From Branchiostoma floridae (Eukaryota; Chordata; Leptocardii; Amphioxiformes; Branchiostomatidae): 64,000 nt of DNA. The notes beneath the pieces were generated by a model. That model was not told the DNA's origin, made no database searches, and saw only the letters and a list, made by a program, of their open reading frames with translations. Of the stretch, positions 95-56,306 are shown piece after piece. The stretch covers positions 8,080,189 through 8,144,188 of the forward strand of contig NC_049982.1 of assembly GCF_000003815.2 (NCBI RefSeq), read 5' to 3'. The translations under genes and the position numbers were made by a program. Position 1 is the first letter of the stretch; each line of letters opens with the position of its first letter.

Positions 95-1535
95 CTGTTG
101 GCAGGATTGTCCTCCACACCCTCCACATCCGCCAGACGGACCGGGAGGACCCGGCGGACCGGGAACACCATCACGGCCGTCCCGCCCGTCTCGTCCGGCC
201 GGTCCCTCAGGACCTCGGAAGGGACCTGCGGCAGTTGCAGTGAGGTTTATATTACTCTTTTTTACAAGAAAATACATGGCCGCACAATGTACAAACTGCC
301 CATTTATAGTGTTAATGGTGTAAGATGTGACGTAATATTGGTAAGACCATTAATCTCCCAATGAACTGCAACTGGGAGAGTCCGCCTGACGGAGAGGAGC
401 AGGGGGCCAGTCCCTGGCCTAAGCACTTAGGCAGGTAGGCAGGCATTATCCTCAGAATTCCACTCTGTCACCACTGCAGTCAAAAGACACGTGGCCCGTA
501 TTCTCAAAAAGATAACTTGAGTAAGTAAACACCGACCAACGTCTATTCATTCCTGGTGTGTTTAGATATTATAGGAAAGAATCCATATCTGCCCACCTGA
601 GCCGTAGGGTGTTGTGACAGTGCTGGCCGATCTCTTAGACCGCCGCATGAGGGCGCTGTGATCTCCAAGCTTGACGTCATCACCGACTTGACTCGGTTTC
701 ACATCGGGGTCAGTCTCCTGTTGTAAAATGTTCGAAATTTTACTCCGCAAATGTATATAGTCAGAACGTATTGTTGTTTTCGAGAAAATATGAGACAATT
801 GCAGTTCTGATCTATCACATTGCTTCCCACGCGATGGTAAATTTTAGCGTAAAGATGATTGGAGGCTGACACAGACATATCCAAAACGTGAGATAATACC
901 ATTGTAGCTTAAATCTGGTATATTCAACACAATACACTGGTCTGAATATAAAAAGACTGAAGAACTGTTAACTAAAGCTCACTATGCTATGATGTCATGC
1001 TGTACATGTTGTCAACAGTGAGGTATCGAAGCACTGAGAAGAATCTATGCTAACCCCTTACCTCATGAGATGTTACGTAGGTTGGTTCTTGTTCATTTCC
1101 CAATCCGAGTTGGAACATGGTTTCCAGCACAGCCAGTCTCTCTCTCAAAGACGCCCCGTCAGCTTTCTCCTGCTGTAACTCCGCACGTTCGCTGTCTAGT
1201 CGAGTCTTCATAGACGACAGTTGGATTTTCAGGGCCGCCACTTCCTCCTTGTCTTTAGCGGCGGCGTCTTGCTTGATCTCCATGGCCAAGGTACGATCCC
1301 TCAGTGCCAGGATCTGGTCTTTCAGTTGAGACACTTCTTGGAAGCAGTCAGACACTTCTTGATAGGACTTCTCTCGCACATATTTGACCTCGTGAGCGAG
1401 GAAGACGAGGGCCGCCACCACCAGCACCCCCGCCACGGCCACCACGGCCACCGTCACCTGTTGGGCCGCGCCGGGTCGGTCTCGGCCGGCCCGGCCGGTA
1501 ACTTCGCTTACGTTAAGCAGCTTCTCCGAGTTCAT
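95..1535 (-). CDS. Gene A: type II membrane collagen-stalk protein, partial (3' end off the left edge)
   Basis: Three exons are seen: 1062-1535, 597-717 and 95-225, joined in phases 0 and 1 with GT/AG borders. They encode 242 residues, after which the gene leaves the window. Exon 1 begins [12 protein letters not shown], has a basic stretch (RAGRDR) before a hydrophobic helix at about residues 27-48, then a coiled coil to about residue 145. The basic N-terminal side argues for a type II membrane protein. Exon 2 carries RRSKR, a furin-like R-X-K-R site. Exon 3 encodes Gly-X-Y triplets including [10 protein letters not shown] and ends [13 protein letters not shown] in phase 0. The intron left of exon 3 resembles the one in gene F that leads to an F5/8C exon, so the missing head is probably F5/8C (inference). 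An in-frame upstream extension (MVTPSHILA) is ignored because all paralogues align at M-S/N-S-E-K. Confidence 0.8.
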
Positions 1536-2585
1536 GGCGAGAATGTGACTTGGCGTGACCAAAATTTTCTTACTGTGGACAATTTTCCACCGACCGAGGA
1601 CAGTGTGGCAGTGGCAGATACCGAAATGCGCAGCTTGTATGAAGAATACCCGTGGTCGAAGGTCATTAGTTAGAACACCTGTGGCATTAAATTATATTAT
1701 CATATAGCCAGGGGACGTGGGCCAATCAGAAGGCCCCATTTCATGCTGGTTATGACGCCGTAACAGCCGTGCATTAAATTTTTTATTATTGCACGTGTGC
1801 ATTAATGACTTTTGAAAGTTTAAACCAATCAGAAGGACAGATAAACAGGACGCTGGCCAATCATAATGAGATATCCAGGAATCGTCCATCTGCCAAGATA
1901 GGGGAATAAGTACAGGCACGGCAAGGGGGATGGCTCCCTCTATCAACATCGGTAGTGCGTGTTTCTTTTTTTAAAGAAAACATTTGCCGTCTTAAAACAA
2001 CATTGAATTACCTATAATATTTAAGACAATAAAATCTATTTCAAGTCATGTCCAATTTAAACTGCAAATGGAAAATAAAATTACTTGTACCCCCGCCCAT
2101 TCAAGTTCAGACGACAATAACACCACGGTCCGCCATTGAGAAGCGGTCATGGCGCTGGAGGACCAAAATGCTACCTTTCTTCGGAGAAGTCGTGTCTGAG
2201 TTCGTAGTGAACGAGATTCTCAAGAGCTGTGAAGCACAGGGATCCCGGAATACCTCAGGAAAGCCGGCAGAGATTTAGCGCCTGATACGAACGAACTCGA
2301 CAAACTGGAGAATGGGCGAGTGGAGAAATACGGAGCGTGCAACAGTTTGTAACATAATGAATCGACTTTGTTCTTATTTCAAGCCTTGGAACAAAAATAC
2401 ATTTCACGTACAAGTTTTATGTTGTTCAAATTCACTGTTCAAATTTATGTACTGAACAAAAGATGTATGTTTTATAAAGGAATTTGTCGCTCCTACTCAA
2501 CCGGAAACTCTACTCTACGTACTCTACTCTTAAATGGGTCAGTGTGGGTAGGCTGTATGATAATAGGGTTAATGACCCACCTGTT

Positions 2586-5776: not shown

Positions 5777-6035
5777 CTAGCGAACGCGGCAGCAACAGTA
5801 GTTTGGCCCGCAGATGTTAGCCGCAAAGGCACAGCCACCGATGAAATAGCGAAATGCTGCAGGGCCAACTTTTCCAGCGTCAGTGTTGTGGTCGGATGAA
5901 AGGACAGGCCGACCTCCGTACACATGTACGGCATCAAAGCACTCTGAGGTGCTGTGGAAAAGAAATCATCATCAACAAATCATGATACTAACGTTATACG
6001 AGATATCATATAGTGGCTAAATGTTCACACATACG

Positions 6036-6075
<40 letters not shown>

Positions 6076-6117
6076 CACACACATAAATATTGCATAAATA
6101 GACATATGTCTGTATGA

Positions 6118-6157
<40 letters not shown>

Positions 6158-8652
6158 GTCGTGTACAAAAGGACTGGTGCATTCAAAGATTCAAAGAAGA
6201 AAGAATCACTGTCTGCTGAGAACTGGTAGTTTTGTAATTGAAAATTTAAACATTTCGACATTCAATTACAACATTGTAGCACAAACCTTCCCTGCTTGAA
6301 AACATCTTCCTGGGAGGTGCATATGTCGTTGCACGTCTGACCGTCCCCGTTACGACTACAATCCCGACGGATGGCGAAGATGTATGCTCCTCGGTCGGTG
6401 ACCGCTGTACAGATGCTCTGTGCCAGCATATCACGGTAGTTGTGGTCTGGTTGAGGAAACGTAGAGAAAATGTGGAAGGTGCAAAAATAGACAGTAAATC
6501 ATTCAATATTCATTCAAAGTGTGGAATATCCATAAGCATGGCAACTTAAGCGTGTAGATGGAACAGTATAACATATGTACTGAAAATGATTTTGACTACC
6601 TACTCCTAGCCTGTTTGCTACATGTATACATGTATACACCTATATCCGAAGTATTTACAAAGCAGCACAAATGTTGAAGTGTGTATAGACCATGATACTG
6701 TGAACGAGAGCAGGACGCATATGTGGTTACAAATTTAAACATGCAACTTACTCGATCCATTTACTCCAGGTGGTCCGGGTGGGCCCTCTGGTCCAGGAGG
6801 ACCCTAAGGACATTTGTGATTAGCTGTAATTTTTCTTTCTTCAACAAACTCTACATTTACAAATATGTCAGAGAGCACTAGTTGATTTATACGGAAGAAG
6901 ATGATGGCGATGCATGTGCTGCTCAAAGTTTGCCAAAATGTGACGCCAAAACAAACTACAGAATTTCAGACCTTCTTAAGAGCTGTTTTTGACAATATAA
7001 ATTTTATATTCAATTTTTGCTTCTTGGATTTGGAAACCACAATGGCAACGGGTCACAATGATCATAAAACAACTCCGCCCAATGTTCAATAATACACAAA
7101 CCTATACTTGAAATTATATTTTTTCACAAAACGCTTACACAAAAATGTCCTACCTGTTCGCAAGACGGCTCCCCACACCCCCCACATCCGCACGGAGGCC
7201 CGGGAGGCCCGGGAACACCATCACGGCCGTCCCGCCCGTCTCGTCCGGCCGGTCCTTCGGGACAGCGGAAGGGACCTGCAAAATTTGAATATCGATTGAA
7301 TATCTAACGAAAACGTAACATGAAAATTTTCCAATACTGCAATAGAAAACGTAATACAACATAACAACTATATATTGTGAATTTGACACAAGACGTATGT
7401 CAAGTACTGACAGTGCAAGCTTCGAGTCTAAGAACGCGAAAACTGTGAATAAGATAGAATAGGAAAGGGGCACAAAAAGAAATGTTACATAAACACATAC
7501 TTTCAATTGTGACGGAATCGTCGGATCGCCTGTACACCGTCAGCTTGGTTCGACTTTATAAAAAAAAGCAGATTTAGACTTTTTGTTTAGCTGCTTATCT
7601 TGGCTATTGAATGTTCCTAATTGCTATAACATCTCAAGAAGGCAATAAAATGGGGAACCATGTGTAATCATAGTGTGGTAGCAGATTGTACATATTCCTA
7701 GGGCTTAGGCTCAATATTTTGACCAATGTACTACTGGTATTTGTCTTTTCTGATTGTTCAACTACCCATGTACTACATGTACATGGAAATTTACCCATGT
7801 AATTCGTCCAGACACACCAGTATATGCTATTCCGCCATGTGTAATAGCACTAGACTGTAGAAACACTAAGTTCCTTAGTTTTTTTATTTGACAAATGTAC
7901 TATTGTTGTTGTTTTTTTATTTAAAAAAGAAGGCAATTAAACATTGGCCTAAACATTTGCCGCAAACCACGTCACATCCTCTGTATGTTGATAGTATCTA
8001 AGACACACAAGAAGTGGAACAAAAACTCAATTTTCTTCTAACTACAGACCTAATGCCGAGATGTTAAGACTCAGAAGCCAGTGTTTTTATAGGGTTGACT
8101 TCAAAACAGGAGCATATTCACGGTTCATTGAACTTACAGCCATGCACTGTTCTTTGTTGTAGCAAGCTACTGACAAAAAAGTACCTCTCGAAAGTTCCCC
8201 AAGTTGTGTTCCTCAGCATGCCCGAGTTGGAACTTGGTTTCCAGCACAGCCAGTCTCTCCCTCAAAGACGCCCCGTCAGCTTTCTCCTTCTGTAACTCCG
8301 CACGTTCGCTGTCTAGTTGAGTCTGCAGGGACGACAGGTGGATTTTCAGGGCCGTCACTTCCTCGTTGTCTCCAGTAGCGGCGTTTTGCTGGATCTCCAT
8401 GGCCAAGGTACGATCCTTCAGCGCCAGGATCTGGTCTTTCAGTTGGGACACTTCTTGGGAGCAGTGAGACACTTCTTGGGAGGACTTTTCTCGCACATAT
8501 TTGACCTCGTGAGCGAGGAAGACGAGGGCCGCCACTACCAGCACCCCCACCCCGGCCGCCACGGCCACCGTCACCGGTCGGGCCGCACCGGGTCGGTCTC
8601 GGCGGGCCCGGCCGGTAACTTCGATTACGTTAAGCAGCTTCTCCGAGCTCAT
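5777..8652 (-). CDS. Gene B: collagen-stalk membrane protein with CGPNYCCC head, exon 2 damaged
   Basis: Exons: 8185-8652 ([12 protein letters not shown], transmembrane helix, coiled coil ending NFRE), 7501-7553 (damaged), 7154-7275 (collagen, [10 protein letters not shown], ends GCGGCGEPSCEQ), 6752-6803 (five further Gly-X-Y triplets), 6287-6446 and 5777-5951 (cysteine-rich head). The head reads YRDMLAQSICTAV, IRRDC, TCNDICTS, ECFDAVHVY and CGPNYCCCRVR before TAG. Against gene D, exon 2 has lost 29 bp, which removes the R-Y-R-R site and shifts the frame to a stop. It has also lost 9 bp at its 5' edge. Skipping the exon does not restore frame, but a cryptic donor at 7537 would (330 residues, no cleavage site). 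The first collagen glycine is Cys (FRCPEG). This is a pseudogene or a re-spliced gene. The head is most like that of gene I. Confidence 0.65.
6033..6156. repeat. Microsatellites (CG)n(CA)n and (TA)n
   Basis: Alternating GC then AC dinucleotides run over about 6033-6086, and pure TA over about 6120-6156. Both lie in the intron between the two head exons of gene B. The tyrosine/isoleucine-rich open frames across them are repeat artefacts. Confidence 0.95.
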
Positions 8653-14876: not shown

Positions 14877-17800
14877 CTAGTCACCGGTGCAGTCCCTACA
14901 GAGGAGAACAAAAATGATTTGTTGTAGAGTTGTACATCAGTTAATGCACAATGAAAATCTTCAATTGCTTTTACTGGCACATTTTGTTGCGTGTTGTTCA
15001 CCTTGTCATAGATCATCAAGTTTCCTTGTTGTTTCTGTACCAGGGTTTACTTTTACAGGAAGGGGTTGCTTGCGCCTCGTCGAGTGACAGTGGACCCGGG
15101 CCCCCATTTCATGTTTTTTTTTCTTTCCGAAAGACGGGTGCCGCCCCAACTGATATGCCCTTCCCCTAATCTATTGAAAATCACCTTATGTGAAGTCATA
15201 TGGAGAGAGGAGACTCCAGTAGTGTACTTACTGCCCCAAGACCTCCACCCGCATGCTGACGTGATGAACCCATGTCTGCGGCCAGAACCTGACATAACGT
15301 GCAGTTACCGGTGGGTCCAACAGGTGGCGCACTTCGGTGTCCTGATCAGAGTTGCCAGCGAAGATCTAGGATCAGGATGGTAACGTTACATGTATTGTGA
15401 ACGAACAGCCTATCAGAAACCCCGTTCATAAAAATCAACGTTGTAGGCACACATTAAATGACAGACACAATTTCTAATACTGAACTAGAACAATTACAAT
15501 ATTTACTTAGATTGAATGACTATTCATACCTGCAAGTGCGAGAGAAAACTTTATCAATTCTGTAACGTTAACTACTGTAATTGACTTGATTATGTAAGAC
15601 AATGGTTACCAACCTTCTCACGTCCAAGTTTGTCCAGGTATGTAGACCACGTGATTCCATCTCTGCTGAAGCGTAGTTTGTAGGAGGTCACCCTTTGTGG
15701 ATAAGTGTTACTGGACCTACCCTGGGTGATAACTCCAGCTACAGTAGTCTCTGCTCCCACGTCAACCTGGACAGGAATAACACGTAACCCTGATAAACAT
15801 CAGCGCGGTACAAAATGCCTGCGGTGTTCAAAATGCCATACGTAGTTGCATGATTGTAAGTGTGATTGGTCAACTATGAAGCTTGAATTGGACATTTGTC
15901 CACTAAATTTTCCATGCTGACATTTGAATCCATATCTTCTGGTTTCCTATATTCTATATGTTCTTTTAAAAAAACAACAAAGATTACACAAATAATTATA
16001 ATTAGAAAGTGCTGACATGAAACTGCGTGAGTCTGCGTCAACAAATATCAAGCAAGTGGCTGTCAGTGGAACTATAGGTTACGCCTGGGAGGGAGCGAGA
16101 AGCGAGCACTGGATAGAGGAAAGTGGCGGGGTGGCGCCAGATGAATTTGTTGTGAAGAGGAGGAGAAGGGAGTGCAAGTACTGTATTATGACGATGAGGA
16201 TGAAAAAAACATGCCAGAAGATGTGCACGACACAGGACAAAAATTATTTGATATGATAAAAACAATATAATTTATACCCTGCAGGCTCCACTTACCTGTA
16301 ACCATTGCTTGTTGTTGTTCTGTGCAGCGCACCAGGCTCCGGCGCCCTCCTGGGAATGAAGGCGAGCTTTGCTGGCGTCATGAGCTGAACTTCCATACGA
16401 AGTGGATGCAGTAAGGTGGCTATCAGGAATAGCGCCGCTCTCCATACCTAGAGGTACTGCAGTGCACGGCTGCTACATATACAGAATGAGATATGCATTC
16501 ACTGACGGTAAATGTCATGTTACCCATCATCCCTGGACCATCGGGCACAATACAAAGGTGTCCAGATACATACATTTGTAGCTTGATATGAATTTACCGC
16601 TTTCTTCCGAAAAACGTTGGCCTCGAGCTCAAGTTTGGCTCGGAACACATGAATGAATGACATTTCATGGGGGTAATAAATGAATGAATGAAAACATCAC
16701 GTTATCATACGATAATAACTACAGAGTACAGAGCACACGCTACCTGTGGGCAGGATTGTCCTCCACACCCTCCACATCCACCAGTCGGACCAGGAGGCCC
16801 TGGCGGCCCGGGAGCACCATCGCGGCCGTCCCGCCCGTCTCGTCCGGCCGGTCCTTCAGGACCCCGGAAGAGGCCTGTAACAGTTGCAGTGATCAAGGAT
16901 TACACCGTGTAAAGTTGACATCATTACCAGCTCGGATATCGTGAAGTTATTCGTCCGATCGCCCCGTTTCATCAAAAAGAAATAGCAAAAAATTTCATTC
17001 ATAGAAATAGCGAAAAAGACACCTTTTTGAAGTTTTTCTATTTATCCAACATAAAACGTAGCATAACACATAGGACGCGCCAAACGAAAATCCATTTGGC
17101 TGGGGAAGCCACATGCATGTCTCACTACTAGAGTTGGACGATCACTGATCTATTGTTTGGAGGGCTATTGTAGAATTTCCCCGGGGCATATCGGACAATA
17201 GCGCCAATTTTAGAATTTAACGACGTGGAAAATGTTTATACTAAAAGGGGATCCGGAAATGATCACAATATGCCAAATTTACATCAACAAGCATAATTCT
17301 CTCTCAAAACTCAACTAACGTTCATACCTGCAGTTGTCGTGACCGAGTTGTCGGATCGCCTGTACCTCCGCAAGGTGGCGTTGTGTTCAGGGACACCGTC
17401 AGCTTGGTTCGGCTTCCCGCCCTTCAGACATAAAGAAAGTTAAGTCGATGGAGGTTAGACATGCAGCTAATAAGATACGTTAGATAACAGTTCATTCAAG
17501 AACTGGATAAAAAAGGAGTGAAAATTCTATTCCCTTCCGAGGGAAAAGCCATTATTGTTATAGGGATGAATTAAAAACAAGAACGTATTCACGCTTCATT
17601 GAACTTAGAGCCATGCACGGAAAGAATTAACCCCCGTGTTGTAGCAACATGAGCAAGCTACTGGCAAAAAATACCTCTCGAAAGTTCCCGAAGTTGTGTT
17701 CCTCAGCATGCCCGAGTTGGAACTTGGTTTCCAGCACAGCCAGTCTCTCCCTCAAAGACGCCCCGTCAGCTTTCTCCTTCTGTAACTCCGCACGTTCGCT

Positions 17801-18172
17801 GTCTAGTTGAGTCTGCAGGGACGACATGTGGATTTTCAGGGCCGTCATTTCCTCCTTCTGCGAGGACAGTTGGATTTTCAGGGCCGTCATTTCCTCCTTG
17901 TGAGAGGACGCTTCCTCCTTGTCTTTAGCGGCGACGTCTTGCTTGATCTCCATGGCCAAGGTACGATCCTTCAGCGCCAGGATCTGGTCTTTCAGTTGAG
18001 CGGAGTTTTCACGGACATGCTTTACCCCATGAAAGAGGAAGACGAGGGCCGCCACCACCAGCACCCCCGCCCCGGCCGCCACGGCCACCGTCACCGGTCG
18101 GGCCGCGCCGGGTCGGTCTCGGCGGGCCCGGCCGGCAACTTCGCCTGCGTATGCAGCCTTCTCCGAGCTCAT
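14877..18172 (-). CDS. Gene C: type II membrane collagen-stalk protein with F5/8C head
   Basis: Seven exons: 17675-18172, 17328-17421, 16744-16874, 16296-16469, 15614-15766, 15232-15365 and 14877-14895. They total 1203 nt (400 residues) in continuous frame. Residues 1-166: MSSEKAAYAGEV, basic RARRDR, helix at about 27-47, then a coiled coil with a tandem 14-residue repeat (EEMTALKI..). Residues 167-197: RRYRR, furin-like. Residues 198-241: collagen ([10 protein letters not shown]) and Gly/Cys knot. Residues 242-400: F5/8C (discoidin) domain starting [16 protein letters not shown], with [19 protein letters not shown] and [10 protein letters not shown]. The last 19-nt exon adds DCTGD, giving the cysteine that normally pairs with the first one in this fold. 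F5/8C domains bind membrane lipids or glycans. The protein would be a plasma-membrane, possibly shed, trimer (inference). Confidence 0.87.
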
Positions 18173-20146: not shown

Positions 20147-23100
20147 CTAGTCACCGGTGCAGTCCCTACAGAGGAGAACAAAAATGATTTGTTGTTAAGT
20201 GCATCAGTGAATGCGCAGTGAAAATCTTTTTTCAATGCATTTACTGGCACATTGTGTCGTGTTGTTCATCTTGTATTGAGCCAAAGGTCAGCAGGTTTCC
20301 TTGCTGTTTCCGTTTCAGGGTATTCAGGAAGGGTTGCTTGCACCTCCTCGAACACGGACAGTATTTCATGTCTTTTCGAGAGACGTGTGTAGCCTAGCCC
20401 AAGATGCCCTTCTCCGAATTAATTCAAAACCGTCTTAATGGAAGTCACACGGAAAGAAGAGAAGACTTCAATAGTGTACTTACTGTCCCAAGACCTCCAC
20501 CCGCATACTGAGGTGAGAGTTCCATGCCTGTGGCCAGAACCGGACGTAACGTGCAGTTACCGGCGGCTCCAACAGGTGGCGCACTTCGGTGTCTCGATCA
20601 GAGTTGCCAGAGAAGACCTGGGATGATATTTTGAAGAAAAAAAACAATGGAGCCGGCTAGCAGCAATGCTACATGGAAACAGATGGTAAAATCTTGCAGT
20701 AACACATATATGATTTATTAGACTAAAGAAGCCTAAGAACACGTACATCTACATAACCTGAAATATCAGAAAAAACTCTATCTAATCTGGAAAAAAATCA
20801 TATATGACTTCCGTCAGTTCATATCAACTATGGTAAAATCCTAGTTAACATCAGCCATACAGTATCGGTTATAGATTATTAGTAATATTCGAGAATGACA
20901 GTCTCTGCTACGCTGCATCAGTCACATCTGTAAGCTGTCTCAGGTCTTACAAATGTCTTTTTCTGCAAAGTGGCCTAGTCAGCAAAATCCTTGGAAATAT
21001 CAAACTTGTGAAGAAGACAATGGTTACCGACCCTATCACGTCCCAGTTTGTCCAGGTATGTAGACCACATGCTTCCGTCTCTGCTGAAGCGCAGTTTGTA
21101 GGAGGTCACCCACTGATTTGACGAACCAGGTCTACCCTGGGTGATAACTCCGGCTACAGTAGTCTCTGCTCCCACGTCAACCTGAACAGGAGGAAAACGC
21201 CATCCTGGTACGTTATTCAGGGTACCTATTCTACATTTGTATCTGTACATATTCTACATTTGCGTCAAGTTTTTCACCCAATATATTAACAACGTAAGCT
21301 ACGTAACCAGGTCTCACGTACATTCACGGTGTCTTGTTAGATACTCCGGGATATGGTGTTAGTCGTTGTCTTCTAATAGCTCGTGATTTACTAAGTGTAT
21401 ATATGATAAAAACTATATCAAACTGTTGTTCAAACATGAACAGAAAATGCGACAGTACATGGCAACATACAATCAATGTACAATGTACAATCAATGGCAG
21501 CAAAAAAGAAAGAAACTGGTCAGAAGATGTTAACCGGGGGAAGAAAAATAATTTGACGAAAGCCAAAGAACTTAGTGTAACGACATATGAATCAAGGGCA
21601 CAATTACAAAGCAAGTTACACCATGCCCTCTTACCTGTAGCCACTGGTTGGTGTTCAGCGGGTGGTTAGCGCACCAGGCTCCTGCCCATCCGCCCTGGCT
21701 TGTCTGGCTGTCCTCCCGGGAATGAAGGCGAGCTTTGCTGGTGGCACAACCCGGGTGTGTGGAGGATGCAGTGATGTGGCCATCAGGAATAGCGCCGCTC
21801 TCCATACCCAGTGGTACTGCAATGCACGGCTGCTACATACAGGATGTGACCAAGGCGGTTAGAATAAGACAAAACGTCATGTATTCACTGATGGTGAATG
21901 TCATGTCACCCATTATCATTTGCCCATACGGTACAATACAAGGTTGTCCAAAGTTATAAGCTCGATATAAATTTACAGCCTCCAAAAGATGTTGGCCTCA
22001 AGTTTGAAAGCACAAGAACACGTCACGCAATCATGCGATAATACCTGTTGGCAAGATTGTCCTCCACACCCTCCACATCCACCAGCCGGACCGGGAGGCC
22101 CGGGCGGCCCGGGAACACCATCACGGCCGTCCCGCCCGTCTCGTCCGGCCGGCCCTTCAGGACCACGAAAGAGGCCTGTATTTTTAAACATTTGCAGTTA
22201 CAGTTTCAGAGGTTTACACCGTATACAGTCATTGATATCATTGCCAGCTTGGATAGAAATGTGGTAAAGTTATTCATTAGATCTCCTCGTTGCAGGAAAA
22301 AGTGCAGGCACCGTGTAAAAGACATTTTGGAACTTATCCAATATAAAAGGTCAAACAAATAAATGCCAGGCAGGGCATCAAACATTCGAAAGCCCCTTCG
22401 AATGGGGAAGTCATACATGACTTGTATGCCTCGCTAATGCTATACTAGAGTTGGCCCTAGAGCTAAAGAGGTCATCCGTTAAGGCCCTGGAAAATAGCCT
22501 GGCATTCAGGATCCACAAATATCAGTCAGAATTCGAAATCTATTTCGAAGACTAAGCGACTTTGACGCAAATAAAGCAAAGGTGAAATAACACATATTTT
22601 AGAATTCAACGACGTGGAAAATTAATACTAAAAGGGGAAATATCATAATTGGACAATATTACAACAACAAGCACAATCCTCTCTATTTTATTCACGCGTA
22701 TTTACGTTAAGTCAGCTTTGACGACGGTCCTACATACCTGCAGGTGTCGTAACCGAGTTGTCGGAGCGCCTGTACCTCCGCAAGGTGACGTTGTGTTCAG
22801 GGACACCGTCAGCTTGGTTCGGCTTCTCGTCCTTTAGACATAAAGAAAGTTACGTCGATGAAGGTTAGGCATCCAGCTAATACACGTAAGGTTCATTCAA
22901 GACACTGACGGAAGGTAGCGAATGAAACACCTGACCGCTTCAAATTTAAAATTTTATCAAAATCTTGCGTAGCCGTAGGATGAAGTTGGTTTAGCTTAGA
23001 TATTTTTTATGAAACCTCGGTCTTGTACATCGTTATATGTTGATAGCAGTTCAGACACGAAAGAAGAGGGAATTCTATTCCCTTCCGACTTAAGACCCAA

Positions 23101-33240: not shown

Positions 33241-33605
33241 GTCATCTCACCTGTAGCCACTGGTTGGTGTTCAGCGGGTTGTTGGCACACCACGCTTGGC
33301 TGGAATGAAGGCGAGCTTCGCTGGTGGCACAAACCTGGTGCGTAGTGGATGCAGTAATGTAGCCATCAGGAATAGCGCCGCTCTCCATACCCAGTGGTAC
33401 TGCAGTGCACGGCGGCTACGGAAAATGATGACATTTGACGACATGTGTCTGATCGAAACATCGTTTACATTGATTGTAAACGTCACACCACCCATTTCCA
33501 ATAGTACAACATGCATGGCCATGAATCAGAGCCTAACATAATATGTAAGATTACACTAGTAACGGTTGGTGTAGTAACAGGTAACGAGGGCTGAAAATGT
33601 CCAAC

Positions 33606-33647
33606 CTGTGGGCAGGATTGTCCTCCACACCCTCACGGCTTCTCGTC
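33606..33647 (-). pseudogene. Fused exon 2/collagen exon of gene F
   Basis: On the plus strand ggcaggattgtcctccacac runs directly into cggcttctcgtccttcag. In intact paralogues these two parts are about 0.6-0.8 kb apart in different exons. Acceptor and donor are both present. The hybrid frame contains one TGA at the join. Confidence 0.85.
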
Positions 33648-34361
33648 CTTCAGACACATGATAGGGGAACATTACGTCGATGTAGTGTGGGTAATAAGAT
33701 ACGTTAGGTGACAGTTCACTCAAGAACTGGATAAAAAAAGAGTGGAAATTCTATTCCCTTCCGAGGGGGAAGCCATTATTGTTCTAGGGTTGAATCAAAA
33801 AACAAGAATGTATTAACGCTTCATTGAACTTAAGAGCCATGCACGGAAAGAATTTACTTCCGTATACTGTAGACAGTGTAGTAGCAACAAAAGCAAGCTA
33901 CTGGCCAAAAATACCTCTCGAAAGTTGTGTTCCTTAGCATGCCCGAGTTGGAACTTGGTTTCTAGCACAGCCAGTCTCTCCCTCAGAGACGCCCCGTCAA
34001 CTTTCTCCTTCTGTAATTCCGCACGTTCGCTGTCTAGTTGAGTCTGCAGAGACGACAGTTGGATTTTCATTTCCGTCATTTCCTCCTTGTGCGAGGACGC
34101 TTCCTCGTTGACTCTGGCAGCGGTTTCTTGCTTGATCTCCATGGCCAAGGTACGATCCTTCAGCGCCAGGATCTGGTCTTTCAGTTGAGCGGAGTTTTCA
34201 CGGACATACTTAGCTTCGTGAGTCAGGAAGACGAGGGCCGCCAAAACCGCCACCCCCGCCCCGGCAGCCACGGCCACCGTCACCGGTCGGGCCGCGCCGG
34301 GTCGGTCTAGGCGGGCCCGGCCGGTAACCTCGCCTCCGTAGGCAGCCTTCTCTGTGCTCAT

Positions 34362-36253: not shown

Positions 36254-39200
36254 CTAGTCACTGGTGCAGTCCCTACAGAGGAGAACAAAAAATGATTTGT
36301 TGTACAGTTGTACATCACTTAATGCACGGTGAAAATCTTCAAATGCCTTTACCGACACTTCCTCTTCTGTGTTGTTCACCTTGTCATAGGTCATCAAGTT
36401 TCCTTGCTGTTTTTGTACCAGGGTTTATTTTTACAGGAAGGGGTTGCTTGCGCCTCGTCGAACAGTGGAACCCATTTCATACGTTTTTTCCGAAAGACGG
36501 GTGCCGCCCCAACCGAGGTGCCCTTCCCCTATAATCTATTGAAAATCACCTTATGTGAAGTCACGTGGAAAGAGAAGACTCCAGTAGTGTACTTACTGTC
36601 CCAAGACCTCCACCCGCATGCTGATGCGATCATTCCATGTCTGCGGCCAGAACCGGACGTGACGTGCAGTTACCGGCGGATCCAACAGGTGGCGCACTTC
36701 AGTGTCCTGATCAGAGTTGCCTGAGAAGACCTGGGATGATATTGTGAAGAGAGGAAAGACGGAAAATGATGGCAAACTATAAAAAGGATTTTTAGAAACA
36801 CATAATGTAATACACACATAATTTCTAAAATTAAAGTAGAACAAGTATATGAATCATAATTGACTAATGTGCCTAAAAGTACGAGAAAATGTGTTTGTTT
36901 GAACTTTTGTTTATTAATGAAATGGTCTAATCGGCCTGAAGGCCGCTTTCATTCAGGTGATGAGGAATAGTTATAAGGGTTAAACAACATATGGCAAAGA
37001 TACAGATTACATAATTTCTAGTCCTAGTAAATATATACACATACACATCATCATCATAGTCACACGGCGTATAACAGCACCGTTGGGGTGGCATACCATT
37101 TCTTCTAGCTGAATACGAGACGGGTATGCGCCAGGTCTTCCGTCCGGGTTTTATTATTATTACACATAAATGTTACAAAACTCATAACAGGGTGCAAGCT
37201 TGAATGTTGGGTTCGTGACCAGCCATCATGGTGGTTTCTCCTTAAGAGTTGAAGATAAGATTTACCAACCTTCTCACGTCCGAATTTGTCCAGATATGTA
37301 GACCACGTGACTCCGTCTGTGCTGAAGCGCAGTTTGTAGGAGGTCACCCACTCAGTCTGATGTCCCGACGAACTGGCAGCTCTACCCTGGGTGATAACTC
37401 CAGCCACAGTAGTCTCTGCTCCCACGTCAACCTTCACAGGAAGAACACGTCATACTGAGAAACATCACTGTCATCAGCGCGGTACAAAATGCCTGCGGTG
37501 TTCAAAATGTCGTCTGTAGTTGCATGATTGTAAGTGTGATTGGTCAACCCTTAAACTTCAATTGGTCATTTGTCCACTAAATTGTCCATGCTGACATTTG
37601 AATCCATATCTTCTGGTTTTTGATATGTTCTACATGTTCTATTAAGAAACAAAGATTACACAAATAATTAGAAAATAAAATAGATAACTGCGTGAGTCAA
37701 CATATATCAATCAAGTGGCTGTCAGTGGAGCTAGGTTATGCCTAGCAGGGAGCGGAAAGCGAACACTGGATAGAGGAAAGTAGCGGGCTGGCGCTAGCTG
37801 AATTGCTGTGAAGAGGAGGAGAAGGGAGTGCAAGTATTTGTACTATGACGATGAGGATACAAAAACATGCCAGAAGACTTGCATGGCACTATTGACATAG
37901 AACAAAAATTATTTGATATGATCAAAAGAGTAATCTATACCCTACAGACTCCACCTACCTGTAGCCATTGCTGCTTGTTGAATTGTTCAGCACACCAGGC
38001 TCCGGCGCCCTCCTGGGAATGAAGGCGAGCTTTGCTGGCGGCACAACTGCCAGTATTGTACTGACTGGATGTAGTAATGTGGCCATCAGGAATAGCGCCG
38101 CTCTCCATACCCAGTGGTACTGCAGTGCACGGCTTCTATATACAGGATATGCATTCACTGATGGTAAATGCCATGTTACCCATCATCCCTGGACCATCGG
38201 GCACAATACAAAGTTGTCCAGATACAAACATTTGTAGCTTGATATGAATTTACGACTTCCTTAAAAACGTTCCCCTCGAGCTCAAGTTTAGCTCCGAACA
38301 AATGAATGGCATCCTCCTAACGCCCGGTCCCCAACGGCATTATTAACACAAGTCGTTTTGACACGACTGTGGTCCCTCTGCGTAGGAGAATGAATGAATG
38401 AATGAATGAATGAATGAATGAATGAATGAATGAATGAATGAATGAATGAATGAATGAATGAATGAATGAATGAATGAATGAATGAATGAATGAATGAATG
38501 AATGAATGAATGAATGAATGAATGAATGAATGACATTACCATGAAATAATAACTAAAGAACACACCCTACCTGTTGGCAGGATTGTCCTCCACACCCTCC
38601 ACATACACCAGCCGGCCCGGCAGGACCTGGAGGCCCGGGAACACCATCACGGCCGTCCCGCCCGTCTCGTCCGGCCGGTCCCTCAGGACCCCGGAAGGGA
38701 CCTGCAAAATTTGAATATCGATTTATATCTACACTGTTTATATCATTAGTGGCAAAAGGATATTGGTGACAGTGCGTTTCATGTCGCCACTTCTTAACAA
38801 AGTAAAGGTACGTACAGACACCTAAGGGGCTACGTCGACGAGCACTTTAATTTGGGATTTTAGAAAACGTAACAGAAAACTTTTCCAATACTGCAATAGA
38901 AAACGTAACACAACATAACAACCATATATCGTGAATTTGACACAAGACGTATGTCAAGTACTGACAGTGCAAGCTTCGAGTCTAACAAGGCGAAATTGTG
39001 AATAAGAATCGGAAAGGGACATATATAATAAGAAACGTTACATAAAAACGAACTTTCAAGTCAAGTCCCAACAAAACGCCGATAACCTACATACCGTATG
39101 GTGTGACGGAGTTGGGGGATCGCCTGTACCTCCACAAGGTGGCGTTGTGTTCAGGGACACTGTCAACTTTGTTCGACTTCTCGCCCTTTATAAAAAAAAA

Positions 39201-40014
39201 TGCAGGTTTATAAGACTTTTTATTTAGCTGCTTGTCTTGGCTCTTGAGTATTCCTAATTGCTATAACATCTCAAGAAGGCAAATAAACAGGGAACCAATG
39301 GCCTAAACATTTGCCGGTAAACATTTACAAACCACCGTGCATCGCTGTATGATGATAGCATTTCAGACACACAAGAAGTAGAACAAAAACTCAATTTTCT
39401 TCTAACTACAGACCTAATGCCGAGATGTTAAGGCTAAGAAGCCAGTGTTGTTATAAGGTTAACTTTAAAACAGCAACATATTCACGGTTCATTGAACTTA
39501 CAGCCATGCACTGTCAGAATTTACTTCCGTGTTGTAGCGAGCTACTGGCAAAAAGTACCTCTCGAAAGTTGTGTTCCTCAGCATGCCCGAGTTGGAACTT
39601 GGTTTCCAGCACAGCCAGTCTCTCCCTCAGAGACGCCCCGTCAGCTTTCTCCTTCTGTAACTCCGCACGTTCGCTGTCTAATTGAGTCTGCAGGGACGAC
39701 AGGTGGATTTTCAGGGCCGTCACTTCCTCCTTGTGCGAGGACGCTTCCTCCTTGTCTCCTCTAGCGGCGCTTTGCTTGATCTCCATGGCCAAGGTACGAT
39801 CCTTCAGCATCAGGATCTGGTCTTTCAGTTGAGACACGTCTTTCGAGGACTTCTCACGGACATGCTTAACTTCGTGAGCGAGGAAGACGAGGGCCGCCAC
39901 CAGCAGCACCCCCGCCCCGGCCGCCACGGCCACCGTCACCGGTCGGGCCGCGGGTCGGTCTCGGCGGGCCCGGCCGGTAACTTCGCTTACGTTAAGCAGC
40001 TTCTCCGAGCTCAT
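36254..40014 (-). CDS. Gene G: type II membrane collagen-stalk protein with F5/8C head
   Basis: Exons 39559-40014, 39095-39185, 38571-38701, 37959-38132, 37270-37431, 36597-36730 and 36254-36272 total 1167 nt (388 residues). Residues 1-152: [12 protein letters not shown], basic RARRDR, transmembrane helix, coiled coil. Residues 153-182: WRYRR, still R-X-R-R. Residues 183-226: collagen; one knot Gly is Val ([11 protein letters not shown]). Residues 227-388: F5/8C domain ([50 protein letters not shown]). The mini-exon reads DCTSD, keeping the closing cysteine. The head is closest to gene C (same 58-codon first exon and similar introns). The upstream CCAAT is changed to TCAAT. Confidence 0.87.
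38388..38533. repeat. (GAAT)36 microsatellite in an intron of gene G
   Basis: There are 146 bp of perfect GAAT repeat between the collagen exon and F5/8C exon 1. The same place in gene C (about 16650-16690) has only short gaatgaatga runs. The FIHS-repeat frame on the other strand is an artefact. Confidence 0.97.
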
Positions 40015-41794: not shown

Positions 41795-44700
41795 CTAACT
41801 GTACACATCGTCCTGTCCACGCGCCCGGTTACAGTTAGGGCCGTTGCTGCTGCAGTCAAACGTGTCGAGCATGTTATCGAAATCCTGCACCATGGACGGC
41901 ATCGCCTCGGGGGCGGTGGCAGGGTTGTTATTGAAGCCCACCACATCTGCTCGCAGGCTTGCAACAGGACCTACGGAGATTAAATGTCAAGGCTTTAAGC
42001 TAGTCACCTATACCTTTTACATAAGATCAGGCCTACATGGCTTCTTCTTACCTCCACATTTGGTAGACGGCTTTGAAGAGGACATAAGGAATGTCTCTTC
42101 GAAAAAAATCACATTGTCGACTCAGGAAAAAATGTGTAAACAGCCAGTTTACTAGCACCTTCGACAGGAAGGTTATGTTTCCGGCAATGTTCTTGCGCGT
42201 GCGCGCATGTGTGCTTGTGTGTATGTGTGTGTCTGTGCCTGTATCTATAACGTTATCTATATCTGTGTGTCTATATGATCATGATAACAATCAAAGGTAC
42301 CCACCTTGAAGATAGTCGTCCTCACCAAGATTTTCCAAATCTGGAGCGGCAAAAGCCACCAGTCGCTCCTCTCCACCACTGTCCGCGTCGTAGACTAGGC
42401 TTGTCACATTCCCTACACGGCTCCAGTGTGTGGCTTCTCTTCTGCGCCTGGTCCCATTGCCGCCCGTGATAGGTCCTTCCCTTCCGCTGAAGGGAATCAA
42501 GCCTACCAAAAGTCAGGAAAAGTGAGACGTTGCAATATTATCTAAAGATAAGTGGAAAGCTTCTAATTCAAAAGGTAACAACTATTAAAAACTGTAACGT
42601 TAGACATTTAAATTGGAGAATAATATACCGGATGATATTCCTTTTGAAATATCGACTTACCCACATCACGTAAGTCTTCAAGGTCCCTCAGCACATTGCT
42701 CAGCCCGAGTTTCCTAAGAAACCCCGGAGAAGACCTTGTCAGAGCCGTTATTTCAGGGTGTAAGACGTCGTAGTTAACACATGCGTCTGTGGAGTAGTTG
42801 TCGTCTGCTGACGGACCGTAGAGAGGACGCACCAGACAGGACGCTGTGGCAAGATTATCATAAGGAATGAGCTAAGATCTGATTCCAATGCCGTGGAACA
42901 TCCTGGAGAAATTTTAAAAATTGAGTTGCAATAATATGTAATTAAAATCTATTTCACAGTGAAATCCTTCATAGCCATCAGCACAGTAGCAGGTGTAACC
43001 GCCAGCGCGGTCGATACAAAATCCGCCATTTTAATTTGAAACGTCGAAGAATGACTGGGGGGCACTCCTAGTATCCGGTAGTCCAAGGGGACAAATTTGT
43101 GGCTTCGTAGCCCGACCGGGGCTACATCCCTGGCGGGCACCAGTGCTGTGAGTGTGAATGCTTCTTGAACAACAAATCGTGTACATGATTTTCAAAAGTA
43201 AGAAAAGAAATGTCTCATTAGGAAAGTAATATCTGTATATGGTGCAGAATAAAGTGTTTTTTTTCTATTTCAGAACTAACCTGTTTGATAGCTGTGACTT
43301 CTTCCACACACCCCGCAGCACCCACCAGGAGGCCCGGGCGGCCCGGGAACACCATCACGGCCGTCCCGCCCGTCTCGTCCGGACGGTCCCTCAGGACCCC
43401 GGAAGGGACCTGTGGCAGTTGTAGTGAGGTTTACAGTTACATTTGACAGATACACAGGTACAGATGGTGTAGCAGTAGCATCCGTTAGTGTATAAATCGT
43501 TATAAATACATCAGCCCGGGACAAACTACACTACACTAGCTAATGGCAGTTTTTAAGGTGAGACGAGTAACAATATCAACAATTCCCTTCACCCTGCCAC
43601 CAGTTGTAAAACGTTAGCGTCTTCGTAAAAAATGCAGAGATCAAGTGATCTTTATTTTTGAAATATCACTGTTGTTATTCCAGGTGTGTTCGAGTGGAAA
43701 GAACCATGTCTGCCCACCTAAGCCGTAGGGTGTTGTGATGGTGTTTGCAGCTCTCTTGGACCGTCGCATGGGGGCGCTGTGATCTCCAAGCTTGACGTCA
43801 TCACCGACATGACTCGGTTTCACGTCGGGATCAGTCTCCTGTTGTAAAACAAACAAATGTTCAAAATTTACGATCAGACAGTATATACAACAAGTTCTCT
43901 TACAATTCCATACCATCACCGCAATACTAACACTGTTTACAGCTATCTAAAGTTGAAAAACCAGACATGTCGAGTTTTTGCCGGATGGTTACCTTTGAGG
44001 TATGGGTGACCCAACGTGCCCAATTAATCTGCGGTGTTCATGCGTATGATATATACATGAATACATATTCAGACATTATTGTTGTTTTCAATGATATGAG
44101 ACAATTGTGATTCTGAGCGCTATCACAGAATTTTACCATAAAGTAAGGGAAAGGTTATGTAAAATTCTAAGAGTTGATGGAAGAATGACATATCTAAGGT
44201 GTGAGATTATAGCATTATGTATGCTTAAGTATGCTGTATTGAACACCCTAACCTGGTCATAATAAGCAAATCTAATATAAATGGAGTGAAGAACTTTACC
44301 TAAAGCTTACTATGATGTAACATTGTGTTAACATTGTTGTTATCGAAACGGAAGAATCTGTGTTGCATCCTTACCTCATGAGAGGTTCGGTAGATTGGTT
44401 GTTCTTCATTTTTGAATCCGAGTTGGAACTTGGTTTCCAGCACAGCCAGTCTCTCTCTCAAAGACGTCCCGTCAGCTTTCTCCTTCTGTAACTCCGTCTT
44501 CAGTAACGACAGTTGAATTTTTAGGGCCGTCACTTCCTCGTTGTCTCCAGTAGCGGCGTCCTGCTTGATCTCCATAGCCAAGGTACGCTCCTTCAGCGCC
44601 AGGATCTGGTCATTTGCCTTTACTAGTTGATCCTCCAGTTGAATTGCGTTCCCCCGAATATATTTGACTTCGTGAGCTAGGAAGGCAAGGGCCGCCACCA

Positions 44701-44812
44701 CCAGCGCCCCCGCCCCGGCCGCCACGGCTACCGTCACCGGTCGGGCCGCGGGTCGGTCTCGGCGGGCCCGGCCGGCAACTTCGCTTACGTGTAGCAGCTT
44801 CTCCGAGCTCAT
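41795..44812 (-). CDS. Gene H: type II membrane collagen-stalk protein with an unrecognised head
   Basis: Exons 44375-44812, 43718-43838, 43281-43409, 42661-42843, 42305-42502 and 41795-41970 total 1245 nt (414 residues) in continuous frame. Residues 1-146: MSSEKLLHVSEV, transmembrane helix, coiled coil. Residues 147-187: RRSKR site. Residues 188-229: collagen, ending GGCCGVCGRSHSYQT in phase 1. The head (230-414) spans three phase-1 exons: CLVRPLYGPSADDNYSTDAC; GNGTRRRREATHWSRV with ERLVAFAAPDLENLGEDD; ADVVGFNNNPATAPEAMPS, ending DCSSNGPNCNRARGQDDVYS. It has four cysteines, acidic stretches and a second basic RRRR run. I do not recognise this module. Frame continuity over three exons argues that it is real. 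Confidence 0.72.
42951..43029 (-). pseudogene. EGF-like domain relic in an intron of gene H
   Basis: One frame reads NGGFCIDRAGGYTCYCADGY then EGFHCEI, a clear second half of an EGF module (C-x8-C-x-C-x8-C). Immediately upstream is an in-frame TAA, the first cysteines are out of frame (GAGTGCCCC), and no donor follows GAAATAG. It is therefore not a usable exon. Confidence 0.6.
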
Positions 44813-47516: not shown

Positions 47517-51610
<4,094 letters not shown>

Positions 51611-52988: not shown

Positions 52989-55900
52989 CTAACTGCAGCG
53001 ATATTGATACATAGTGGCCAGTCCAAAAACATTGATGTTAGTGGTTGCCCAGTCAATCACGTTGCCATGATGACCACAGAAGACTGACCAGTCTGTCCCT
53101 ATCTCAGCTGGAGTCAGCACGCGGTCCCAAAGGTTCACCTGTGACAGTTCTCCGATGAACGCTTGATCCGGCTGGAACCCTCCCCCGACTCTGTCTTGAT
53201 CTTGTGCAAGGATCCATGTTCCACCACTGCGCACTGCCCCTCCTACGCTCAGCCCCGAGCCGGAAGCCTGAAGAGCGCCGTCAATGTAGACCTGCCAGGC
53301 TCCGTTGGTGCTGCGCCAGGTGGCACATACTGCATGCCTCTCACCATCCCAAACAGGCAAGACACCAACGGCAGCCTGATTACCTTGTACGAACAACTGA
53401 AAAATACATTCCAAGGGCATTGACTGTTATCTTGGGAAATTTACCATGTGTTTGTAAGTTAAGTATTGAGAAATTAAAGATCATCAGAGTGGCGAGTTAG
53501 ATAACAGAGGTTTGTGATTGTCAACTTACTAAGAATCCGCCCGCTCCGTTTTTGAGGATGAGTATCTCATTGTGATGTTGTTGTACAGCATAGCTGACCA
53601 AACCTGCTGCACTGTTGGAACTCATGTCGCTACGCATTTGCAGACATAAAGTAAAACTTCTTAAGTTCTGAGACCATGTTGTTCCCAGCTTGGCGTAGTT
53701 ACCGACGCTTTGTGGAGCCGGAAAGGTTGTCTTTTGCAAATAAGTTGCTGTATTTGACAGAAAAGACATATCTTTGTCAAAGCTTTATTTTCGGTCAAAT
53801 ACTTTCCTCGGGATGCCAAGTCGCAGGTTGAGGACACTATGGGTGATCGTAAAGTCTGGTTGGACGTCCTTGGTTGGACGTAGTCCGGGCAGCACGCTCG
53901 AAATCACAACGATGATGGCATCTTTGGAGTTGCGGTGGAGTAAAACTCCTCTGCCGGCTAAACTCCTTGCCCAGCTCATGTTACTGTCTTAAACCACCGC
54001 AAGATCTGCTTGGAGATTAATGTACAGTATCTATAGGTTCATTGACATTGTGGTAATTCCTTCCGACAAATACATGTATACAGCAAAATTTTTAGTCTTA
54101 TTCGTGTATTACCAAAATAGTGTGAGTCCTACGGGTATTTTGAGATCCCAAGACTCAGTACTCAAAGAAGAAGGGAGGCTTGTCTCAAAGAAGAAGGGAA
54201 GTTGTAGAAGGAGAATGTGTGTATAATTTGAGTAGATCCCTTTCCATACCATGAGGTATCTGACCCCTAGCCTGGGCTATTCCATTTATGTCTCAGGGGT
54301 TTTCACTCTTCACAGCTTCTCGAATTATGCTGTGTATACAGGCACACAACACATCATGGCACAGCTGAAAACATAACCCTCTTGGCGAAGGTAACTAACC
54401 TGTTTCATAGTTACCTCGTTCACAAATCCCGCAGCATCCGCCAGCAGGACCAGGAGGACCGGGAGGCCCGGCAACACCATCACGGCCGTCCCGCCCGTCT
54501 CGTCCGGCCGGTCCCTCGGGACCCCGGAAGGGACCTGCGGCAGTTGCAGTGAGGTTCATAGTTACATTTAAAGGATACATGATGGTGTGGCAGTAGCAAC
54601 CGTTAGTGTAAAGATCGTTATAAGTTACAAACACCTCAAGGACAAACTACACAAGATAATGACATTTGTCGACGAGTAACAACATTAAGAACTCATCCTG
54701 CGCATGCGCACCATTGCAGTAGTAAAGAGTTGTTGTCCTCTTAAAAACAATGGCAAAGTTCAAGTGATCTTTATGTTTAAAAAATCAATTTCGTTAATCG
54801 ATTAGTGGAAAGAACCCATGCTTGCCCACCTGAGCCGTAGGGTGTTGTGATGGTGTTGGCCGCTCTCTTAGACCGCCGCAAGGGGGCGCTGTGATCACCA
54901 AGCTTGACGTCATCACCAACTTCACTCGGTTTCACATCGGGGTCAGTCTCCTGTTGTAAAATGCTTAAAATTTTACTCCGCATCCGCACTTCTCGGTTCA
55001 ATAGATAGATAAATCATACTTAAAGTACGTCCATTAGATCAATTTGTGATGGCCATTTCGTTTTAGCCCAGTCAGGATTTCATCCAACCAGAGCTCCGCG
55101 GAAATTTTGCCGCTGATTCTCAAGTGTTTTGAATTTTTGTCTTCTGATCACTTCATTCAACATGGAAGATCACACCCTATTATATCATGTATGCTTCAAT
55201 CTTCTTTCCGTATGTCCAAATTAATCACGTTACGTTTCTGAGATAAGATTCTGCTCCTTTTCTCCTCCCTAATTCGACATGTCTCCGTCGGCCTTGCCTC
55301 TCATAGTAATAATCATAGCACTACTAATGTACGTACGTGTTTACGTATATTATCATTATACTACTTTCAGACATTTTATACAAACAAGCCCCCAACAATT
55401 CTACATCATCGCCGCGCACATAAACGCTGTTTACTGCTTCACCCTTAACCTCTGAAAGGGTCGTTACTTACAGCTATCTAAAGTTGAAAGACCAGACATG
55501 TTGAGTTTTTGCCCGAGGCAAGTTACCTGTCAGTGCGGGTGACCCAACCTGCCCAATTATTCGCGGTGTTTATGTGCATGATATATACATGGCAGCTTAA
55601 CATGTACAAAGGGAAAACATTCTGCGCTTTCCCGAAAATGTTTGTTTCGTAGTTGAATTTTCAATCTGCTGTATTGAACACCCTTCCCTGGCCATAACAG
55701 GCAAAATTGAATATGGAAATGGCGAATAACTTTTTACGAAACTTTCCTGTAATGTGATGAGTCGGGAGCGTTAGCAGGAAAGGCGGGGAGTGTTATTGAA
55801 TAAGAAAAAATATGTTGCCCCCTTACCTCATGAGAGGTTCCGTAGGTTGGTTGTTGTTCGTTTTCGACACCGAGTTGGAACTTGGTTTCCAGCACAGCCA

Positions 55901-56306
55901 GTCTCTCCCTCAGAGACGCCCCGTCAACTTTCTCCTTCTGCAACTCCGCACGTTCGCTGTCTAGTTGATTCTGCAGGGACGACAGGTGGATTTTCAGGGC
56001 CGTCATTTCCTCCTTGTGCGAGGACACTTCCTCCTTGTCTCTCGCAGCGGTTTCTTGTTTGATCTCCATGGCCAAGGTACGATCCTTCAGCGCCAGGATC
56101 TGGTCATTTGCCTTCGCTAGTTGATCTTGCAGGTGACTTGCGTTCTCTCGGACATATTTGACCTCGTGAGCGAGGAAGACGAGGGCCGCCACCACCAGCA
56201 CCCCCGCCCCGGCCGCCACGGCCACCGTCACCGGTCGGGCCGCGGGTCGGTCTCGGCGGGCCCGGCCGGTAACTTCGCTTACGTTAAGCAGCTTCTCTGA
56301 GCTCAT
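52989..56306 (-). CDS. Gene J: type II membrane collagen-stalk protein with pentraxin head
   Basis: Exons 55827-56306, 54830-54950, 54400-54534, 53530-53747 and 52989-53396 total 1362 nt (453 residues). Residues 1-160: [18 protein letters not shown], transmembrane helix, coiled coil. Residues 161-200: RRSKR. Residues 201-245: collagen, with GGCCGICERGNYETG. Residues 246-453: pentraxin domain, with FPAPQSVGNYAKL, SFTLCLQMRSDMSS, NEILILKNGAGGFL, RHAVCATWRST, WILAQDQDRVGGGF and IGELSQVNLWDRVLTPAEIG. The C-A-T-W-R-S core matches the family signature H-x-C-x-[ST]-W-x-[ST] except that His is one residue early. QDQD aligns with the calcium-binding QEQD of C-reactive protein. Pentraxins are usually secreted pattern-recognition proteins; here the domain is tethered through a cleavable collagen stalk. 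Confidence 0.88.

Follow-up and report, generated by a model that had tools for sequence, protein, structure and literature searches.

Introduction

The MACIT collagens XIII, XXIII and XXV and COL-99 are type II membrane proteins with a coiled coil and a juxtamembrane furin site before the first collagen domain, and they are shed (PMC4678570, PMC7848082). Here we analysed a tandem array of lancelet genes with a comparable plan. The window, a stretch of 64,000 nucleotides of the Branchiostoma floridae genome (C4:8080189-8144188), holds ten of these genes, and each copy encodes the same kind of membrane-anchored stalk followed by one of four kinds of head. The stalk genealogy and the head genealogy conflict, which supports slow germline reassortment as the way in which heads have been exchanged. 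Below, coordinates with no contig label are window positions, C2, C3, C4 and so on denote contigs, and all array genes are on the minus strand.

Like the MACIT collagens, the array proteins are predicted to be type II proteins with a coil, according to hydropathy, charge, heptad steps in length and a single predicted helix. A predicted furin motif likewise lies next to the membrane and before the collagen. According to the sources above, MACIT collagens have several collagen domains, 34 conserved C-terminal residues, one gene in invertebrates and no separate head. The array proteins differ when judged by domain plan: their collagen is short and is followed by an F5/8C, pentraxin, CGPNYCCC or H-type head. 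No MACIT is reported for B. floridae or B. belcheri in the survey of PMC4678570.

Colmedins (gliomedin, UNC-122) and ectodysplasin A likewise combine a type II topology, a collagen segment, a C-terminal globular head and a released ectodomain, and class A scavenger receptors (SR-A, MARCO, COLEC12) are likewise type II proteins with a collagen segment (PMC7848082). The head is fixed, as olfactomedin in the colmedins and TNF in ectodysplasin A. Pfam scans of the heads of genes G, I, J and H detected F5/8C, pentraxin or nothing, and no olfactomedin, TNF, SRCR or C-type lectin domain, which separates these genes from both groups. We know of no arrays of colmedin or ectodysplasin A genes. Some class A scavenger receptors have a coil and a C-terminal recognition head and are used in innate immunity; their head is SRCR or a lectin, their genes are dispersed, and furin release is not a defining feature. 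The neuronal pentraxin receptor joins a membrane-anchored coil to a pentraxin head, is encoded by a single gene and has no collagen or furin exon.

No description of the locus was recognized in the open-licence PubMed Central literature, judged by titles and the openings of abstracts, which is a weak negative. The locus is unusual in its copy number, in joining four unrelated heads to the same stalk within a single array, and in the traces that exchange has left there.

Organization of the array

The initial annotation of the window described a row of ten genes sharing exon 1. Translated searches confirmed ten copies of this exon, which contains the tail, transmembrane helix and coil. All are on the minus strand, and they start at 56306, 51610, 44812, 40014, 34361, 29537, 23657, 18172, 8652 and 1535 (genes J to A). 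In a 181-column alignment, the other nine copies are 76-82% identical to exon 1 of gene J. Nine of the ten give whole-exon matches in the genome with E values from 4e-76 to 4e-42; exon 1 of gene C is split into two rows, the better with an E value of 1.5e-36. The row is no chance match.

The ten genes are, however, only those of the window. Exon 1 was searched by translation against the whole genome (513 Mb, 431 contigs). Each of the 56 resulting rows falls on C4, minus strand, from 7831290 to 8136494. They cluster into 43 loci over about 305 kb, and the window is one end of this array. Outside the C4 array, no exon 1 was found at E<=1e-3 in this search of one assembly. F5/8C and CGPNYCCC genome matches were assigned to the exon-1 loci, giving 25 loci with F5/8C, 13 with CGPNYCCC, one with pentraxin, one with the H-type head and three in which no head was found. 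The pentraxin head (gene J) and the H-type head (gene H) have no second copy in the array. As 150 of 955 candidates were scored in the F5/8C search, the F5/8C counts outside the array are lower bounds. The sequence read covered 38 of the 43 exon-1 5' ends, and 35 of these exons are complete, two of them with a stop; about 100 kb of the array lies mostly outside it. All results refer to one assembly of one species.

Three further sets of F5/8C head exons, each with a collagen exon and without an exon 1 of its own, are located at C4:8019873-8016674, 7987316-7979777 and 7899091-7881649, downstream of loci 17, 22 and 34. They are either stalkless remnants or genes split by rearrangement.

The copy number and the chimeric genes might partly be produced by the assembly, through uncollapsed haplotypes or mis-joins. 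Repeated blocks extend to 5.6 kb (97% identity) and 4.8 kb (98% identity), which we take to be in the range of lancelet alleles, and runs of N are present at C4:8007453-8007619, 8075825-8080188 (4.4 kb, next to gene A) and 8082878-8082977 (100 bases at window position 2690). The three longest blocks, however, are in reversed relative order and are not collinear. In addition, the window contains one block of at least 1.5 kb at 90% identity or more, as compared on the fetched sequence, and its single gap is between genes A and B. We regard an assembly effect as very unlikely.

Gene models

Splice sites were read by hand and the exons were joined; the joined exons have GT donors and AG acceptors. 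In the list, e1 is exon 1, e2a and e2b are the two types of furin exon (RSKR and RYRR), e3 is the collagen exon, and f1-f3, h1-h2 and x1-x3 are head exons. All genes are on the minus strand.

52989..56306, gene J, pentraxin head, 453 residues, closes with a stop, GT-AG, phases 0,1,1,0; exons 56306-55827 (e1), 54950-54830 (e2a, RSKR), 54534-54400 (e3, collagen), 53747-53530 and 53396-52989 (pentraxin)
47517..51610, gene I, CGPNYCCC head, 440 residues, closes with a stop, phases 0,1,0,1,2; exons 51610-51173 (e1), 49618-49495 (e2a), 49219-49098 (e3), 48665-48383 (long Gly-X-Y), 48204-48027 (h1), 47694-47517 (h2)
41795..44812, gene H, unclassified head, 414 residues, closes with a stop, phases 0,1,1,1,1; exons 44812-44375, 43838-43718, 43409-43281, 42843-42661 (x1), 42502-42305 (x2), 41970-41795 (x3)
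36593..40014, gene G, F5/8C head, 384 residues, phases 0,1,0,0,0; exons 40014-39559, 39185-39095 (e2b, RYRR), 38701-38571, 38135-37959 (f1), 37431-37270 (f2), 36730-36593 (f3)
31942..34361, gene F, F5/8C head, 299 residues, no furin or collagen exon; four exons 34361-33915, 33415-33251, 32869-32720, 32079-31942
26041..29537, gene E, F5/8C head, 381 residues; exons 29537-29103, 28681-28588, 27930-27800, 27562-27365, 26971-26822, 26178-26041
20480..23657, gene D, F5/8C head, 374 residues; exons 23657-23244, 22831-22738, 22175-22045, 21832-21635, 21181-21032, 20617-20480
15228..18172, gene C, F5/8C head, 396 residues; exons 18172-17675, 17421-17328, 16874-16744, 16472-16296, 15766-15614, 15365-15228
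5780..8652, gene B, CGPNYCCC head; e1 8652-8185, e2b from 7553, e3 7275-7154, and as match spans short Gly-X-Y 6803-6756, h1 6447-6307, h2 5950-5780
95..1535, gene A, head beyond the window; e1 1535-1062, e2a from 717, e3 225-95

Genes C, D, E, G, H, I and J close in frame. Seven closing genes were also counted in the initial annotation; they have five or six exons each and none has seven. Gene F also closes, with its four exons: its furin exon is gone and its collagen exon is a scrap near 33638, but e1 ends in phase 0 and f1 starts in phase 0, so that the frame is kept. The Gly-X-Y exon is present in nine of the ten genes, as had been claimed. The furin exon, expected in all genes except F, was found in eight (A, C, D, E, G, H, I and J). 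In gene B it was not detected; an internal deletion in e2b brings a stop ahead of the usual donor, and two earlier GTs would escape this stop. Gene B is probably damaged. Beyond e3 of gene A lies the run of N (C4:8075825-8080188), followed by a last exon of the F5/8C type at C4:8075195-8075061, and the earlier assignment of gene A as probably F5/8C is fair. The gene models, with consistent GT-AG sites and phases, bear out a constant anchor and stalk with differing heads. A long CATT tetranucleotide repeat is present in the gene G intron before f1 (about 38390-38535).

Reassortment of stalks and heads

In the stalk tree of 35 genes, six genes are located to one side of a 100/100 branch, and they have all four head kinds: gene J (pentraxin), gene H (H-type), the gene at 7859251 (CGPNYCCC), and gene D and the genes at 8039826 and 7838525 (F5/8C). 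The head kind changes six times on this tree, compared with a mean of 12.5 after shuffling, and none of 200 shuffles was as low. This suggests that heads mostly travel with their own stalk and that swaps are occasional. With five changes in furin-exon type on this tree, exon 1 too has been re-paired.

The F5/8C genes were compared in detail using the 14 genes with complete exons among the 25 loci; the other loci are incomplete, gapped or outside the fetched sequence. Stalks and heads reject each other's tree in the approximately unbiased (AU) test (p 8e-76 and 4e-54), and the correlation between pairwise identities of stalks and heads is 0.18 (91 pairs). Five segments, two of e1 and the three head exons, were then tested against the trees of one another. 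The foreign tree gave an AU p below 0.05 in 20 of 20 cross-tests, the weakest being 0.045 (f3 tree, f2 data). As a control, the odd and even codons of one segment gave AU p values of 0.015, 0.016, 0.056 and 0.14. Conflict is thus found between segments of the stalk and between segments of the head as well, and is much smaller between odd and even codons. Exchange has affected the gene over its entire length.

Genes E and F give a local example:

24448..27410, minus strand, gene E head tract that starts within f1 and ends beyond f3, 94.9% identity with 30353-33296 of gene F (3 kb)

The stalk exons of the two genes are 88% identical, compared with 94.9% for the head tract.

Several caveats apply. 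For the six-gene group to be a clade, the root would have to fall elsewhere in the tree, and the root was placed by midpoint only. The sole CGPNYCCC gene of the group (7859251) has a stop in exon 1. Two of the four odd/even controls are below 0.05, and small p-values on short segments should therefore be treated with caution. A special exchange point between stalk and head is unsupported, since segments within the stalk and within the head conflict when tested in the same way (20/20).

The heads had been called exchangeable. Choice of one stalk among several heads by splicing was ruled out, because the copies carry their own e1, e2, e3 and head exons in order (F and B are exceptions). The word therefore holds in the sense of slow germline reassortment, as indicated by the tree conflict and the six-gene group. 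Lancelets have the fastest exon shuffling reported among metazoans (PMC4284660). To our knowledge, there are few cases in which head swapping can be watched inside a single array.

A locus of this kind could also serve as a self-marker or in gamete recognition or allorecognition, with variable heads marking individuals or gametes. Array growth and mosaicism would make individuals differ from one another, and the near-identical blocks suggest recent turnover. The four head kinds, on the other hand, suggest many ligands rather than one matching pair, and we consider such a role very unlikely.

Structure of the stalk

In gene G, exon 1 encodes a tail with a net charge of +3 and then, beginning at residue 28, a single strongly hydrophobic stretch. 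This profile is as expected for a type II membrane protein. AlphaFold2, given exon 1 of gene J with the ten window rows, predicted a single helix at residues 26-150 with a mean predicted local distance difference test score (pLDDT) of 71.5 in the best model.

The length from the transmembrane helix to the anchor, a conserved stretch of 13 residues, was measurable in 31 of the 35 complete stalk exons; the anchor pattern does not fit the other four. It is 64, 78, 85 or 92 residues in 16 exons, 75, 82, 89 or 103 in 14 and 70 in one, which corresponds to remainders modulo 7 of 1, 5 and 0, respectively. By eye, the two main length classes are offset by four residues close to the membrane; the remaining length differences are steps of seven. 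Length changes in heptad steps are what is expected of a coiled coil obliged to hold its register. As the copies are related, the 31 lengths are not 31 independent events.

Each of the two furin-exon types is tied to its own exon-1 ending wherever that ending is readable. Both types pair with F5/8C and with CGPNYCCC heads among the 35 genes, and gene I is the only combination of e2a and CGPNYCCC. The motif R-X-[KR]-R is kept in all 34 detected e2 exons (38 exon-1 5' ends examined), a count that leans towards the motif, since the probes include it and the damaged exon of gene B escaped detection. The collagen of gene I matches PF01391 (2e-16).

Trimerization would rest on the collagen repeats and the coil. 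Against a firm assignment, the collagen segments are short outside the CGPNYCCC genes (about 11 triplets). The AlphaFold2 model was made from one chain and cannot show oligomers; the other four models have mean pLDDT values of 52-58, and residues 1-29 are below 50.

Structure and origin of the heads

The head of gene G is a member of the F5/8C family (PF00754, 8e-31, 107 bits against a gathering score of 28.2). Its closest solved structures are the factor V/VIII C domains, neuropilins and lactadherin, with DDR2 also among them. The head of gene J is a pentraxin (PF00354, 9e-40, 137 bits against a gathering score of 25), and its closest solved structures are NPTX2, NPTX1 and CRP, the first two being neuronal pentraxins. 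The head assignments of the initial annotation thus hold: genes C-G have F5/8C (G being the one tested), B and I have CGPNYCCC, J has pentraxin, and H belongs to no known family. The genome contains many further pentraxin exons, of which the best match, on contig C3, has 83% identity.

Five of five members of the CGPNYCCC head gave no Pfam match at E<=5, although the HMMER filters drop most matches above about 0.1. PDB profile matches with E values of 0.14 and 0.45 (amicyanin) were taken as chance. A relative of the array genes is found at a single locus on C3 (28.964-28.967 Mb). By eye, it has a hydrophobic exon with a short coil-like end and then an open frame, in which R-A-K-R stands just before a 13-residue stretch and collagen repeat; the CGPNYCCC head follows. 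Its tail differs from that of the array proteins and its stalk is much shorter. It is probably near the ancestral plan. Exons with a 12-residue motif were also observed outside the array, at C3:18631696-18632210, C11:9478271-9479077, C13:17581301, C7:23047484-23048456, C327:5846 and C4:10028159-10028768. They form a cysteine-rich family; five members were scanned, and Pfam recognized none.

The H-type head has no match in Pfam or PDB. Relatives of this module are located 0.75 Mb away at C4:8859533-8901264 on the plus strand, in about five sets, and weaker ones on C2, C7 and C362. In the one copy of this 8.88-Mb cluster that was read, an EGF exon precedes the module. A remnant of such an exon is present in gene H:

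42953..43030, minus strand, second half of a decayed EGF exon in the gene H intron before x1, 54% identity over 26 residues, E 1e-7

A stop lies upstream of it, by eye. The remnant matches the EGF exon upstream of the relative. This is strong evidence that the gene H head was taken from an EGF-linked family together with an upstream piece. By eye, the last exon of gene H has a frame shift near its end relative to the 8.88-Mb relative, and the head is consequently about 45 residues shorter.

Residue diversity of the F5/8C heads

The contact sites of the factor VIII (FVIII) C2 domain, which we take to be M2199/F2200, R2215, K2227, L2251/L2252 and H2315, were mapped through the alignment of the gene G head with the structure. 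These site numbers are mutually consistent on the aligned FVIII sequence. Columns within three positions of a site number 29, and the other kept columns 122. The former have 2.07 extra residue types per column and the latter 0.44; a sum as high as the observed one was obtained in one of 150 circular shifts and in none of 20,000 randomly drawn sets of columns. The ratio of nonsynonymous to synonymous change (dN/dS) is 0.70 near the sites and 0.30 elsewhere, compared with 0.36 in e1 and 0.23 in the head core. Residue diversity of the F5/8C heads is therefore concentrated at loops that resemble ligand contacts, the pattern expected of a locus with constant and variable parts.

Other results temper this pattern. 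Three variable loops gave a dN/dS of 0.79, and one four-codon loop only gave 1.23, but these loops were chosen from the alignment; only the FVIII sites were fixed beforehand, and these are themselves assumed. Positive selection, in the sense of dN/dS above 1 at the loops, is not supported, as 0.70 and 0.79 are below 1. Synonymous differences are also higher near the contact sites (0.37) than elsewhere (0.157), so mosaic ancestry or alignment contributes to the loop pattern.

The array products might instead be structural or adhesive matrix proteins, that is, membrane collagens of an epithelial or mucous coat whose heads bind host glycans, lipids or matrix, with no immune role. DDR2, lactadherin and neuropilin, whose structures are near the F5/8C head, bind host ligands. 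Matrix and adhesion proteins, including the MACIT collagens and colmedins, are also among the nearest proteins in plan (PMC7848082). In our judgement, the copy number, mosaic genealogies and loop-focused change are more usual in recognition families, and a stalk shared by four unrelated heads is a poor fit for structural parts. We consider a matrix function unlikely.

Proposed working of the locus

With moderate confidence, we read the locus as a germline array whose type II products work as furin-sheddable, oligomeric recognition proteins. A typical product would have a cytosolic tail of about 25 residues, one transmembrane helix, a coiled-coil stalk, a furin site, a short collagen and a C-terminal head. 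The coil and the collagen would assemble the chains, which would go to the cell surface. A furin-type protease would then cut many of the chains just ahead of the collagen, and soluble oligomers of collagen plus head would be released, comparable to ficolins and collectins. The product of gene F, with neither furin nor collagen exon, would stay anchored. The heads may bind differing ligands, most likely microbial or altered-self surfaces. Diversity would arise from tandem duplication, from recombination that gives exons separate genealogies, from occasional capture of heads and from residue changes in the F5/8C loops.

Oligomerization, shedding, ligand binding and an immune role are predicted from sequence, and so are the terms 'receptor' and 'innate recognition' of the initial annotation. 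Given the conserved furin motif, a shed product is at least as well indicated as a receptor. A broader reading, which we put forward tentatively and would not yet back, is that one sheddable collagen anchor serves as a chassis for unrelated heads: recombination would re-pair and capture heads and tune their reach by coil heptads, resulting in a soluble, multivalent repertoire free of antibodies.

Neighbouring sequences

Between genes A and B (3879-5148) and upstream of gene B (8902-9885), retroelement-like fragments are present on the minus strand. One of them (4330-5148) has a match to the zinc-binding part of reverse transcriptase (4e-6), and the other fragments have no clear match. At 58917-63587, minus strand, an open frame of 1557 residues contains many WD40 repeats and, by eye, a nucleotide-binding loop (GIWGMGGAGKT). 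It looks like an APAF1-type gene, and the frame may include an unspliced intron close to its start.

Significance

New here are the coil lengths that change mostly in heptad steps, the retention of the furin motif, the conflict between stalk and head trees, the stalk group with four heads, the loop bias and the captured head with its EGF remnant. From the furin motif one would predict that the same binder exists both in the membrane and in soluble form. The stalk, the donor family of at least one head, the fossil exon of its capture and the loop diversity are all visible in one locus, and recognition repertoires without rearranging receptors are thus testable there. The array is well suited to the question of how binding proteins, whether at the surface or shed, might become diverse in an animal that lacks antibodies.

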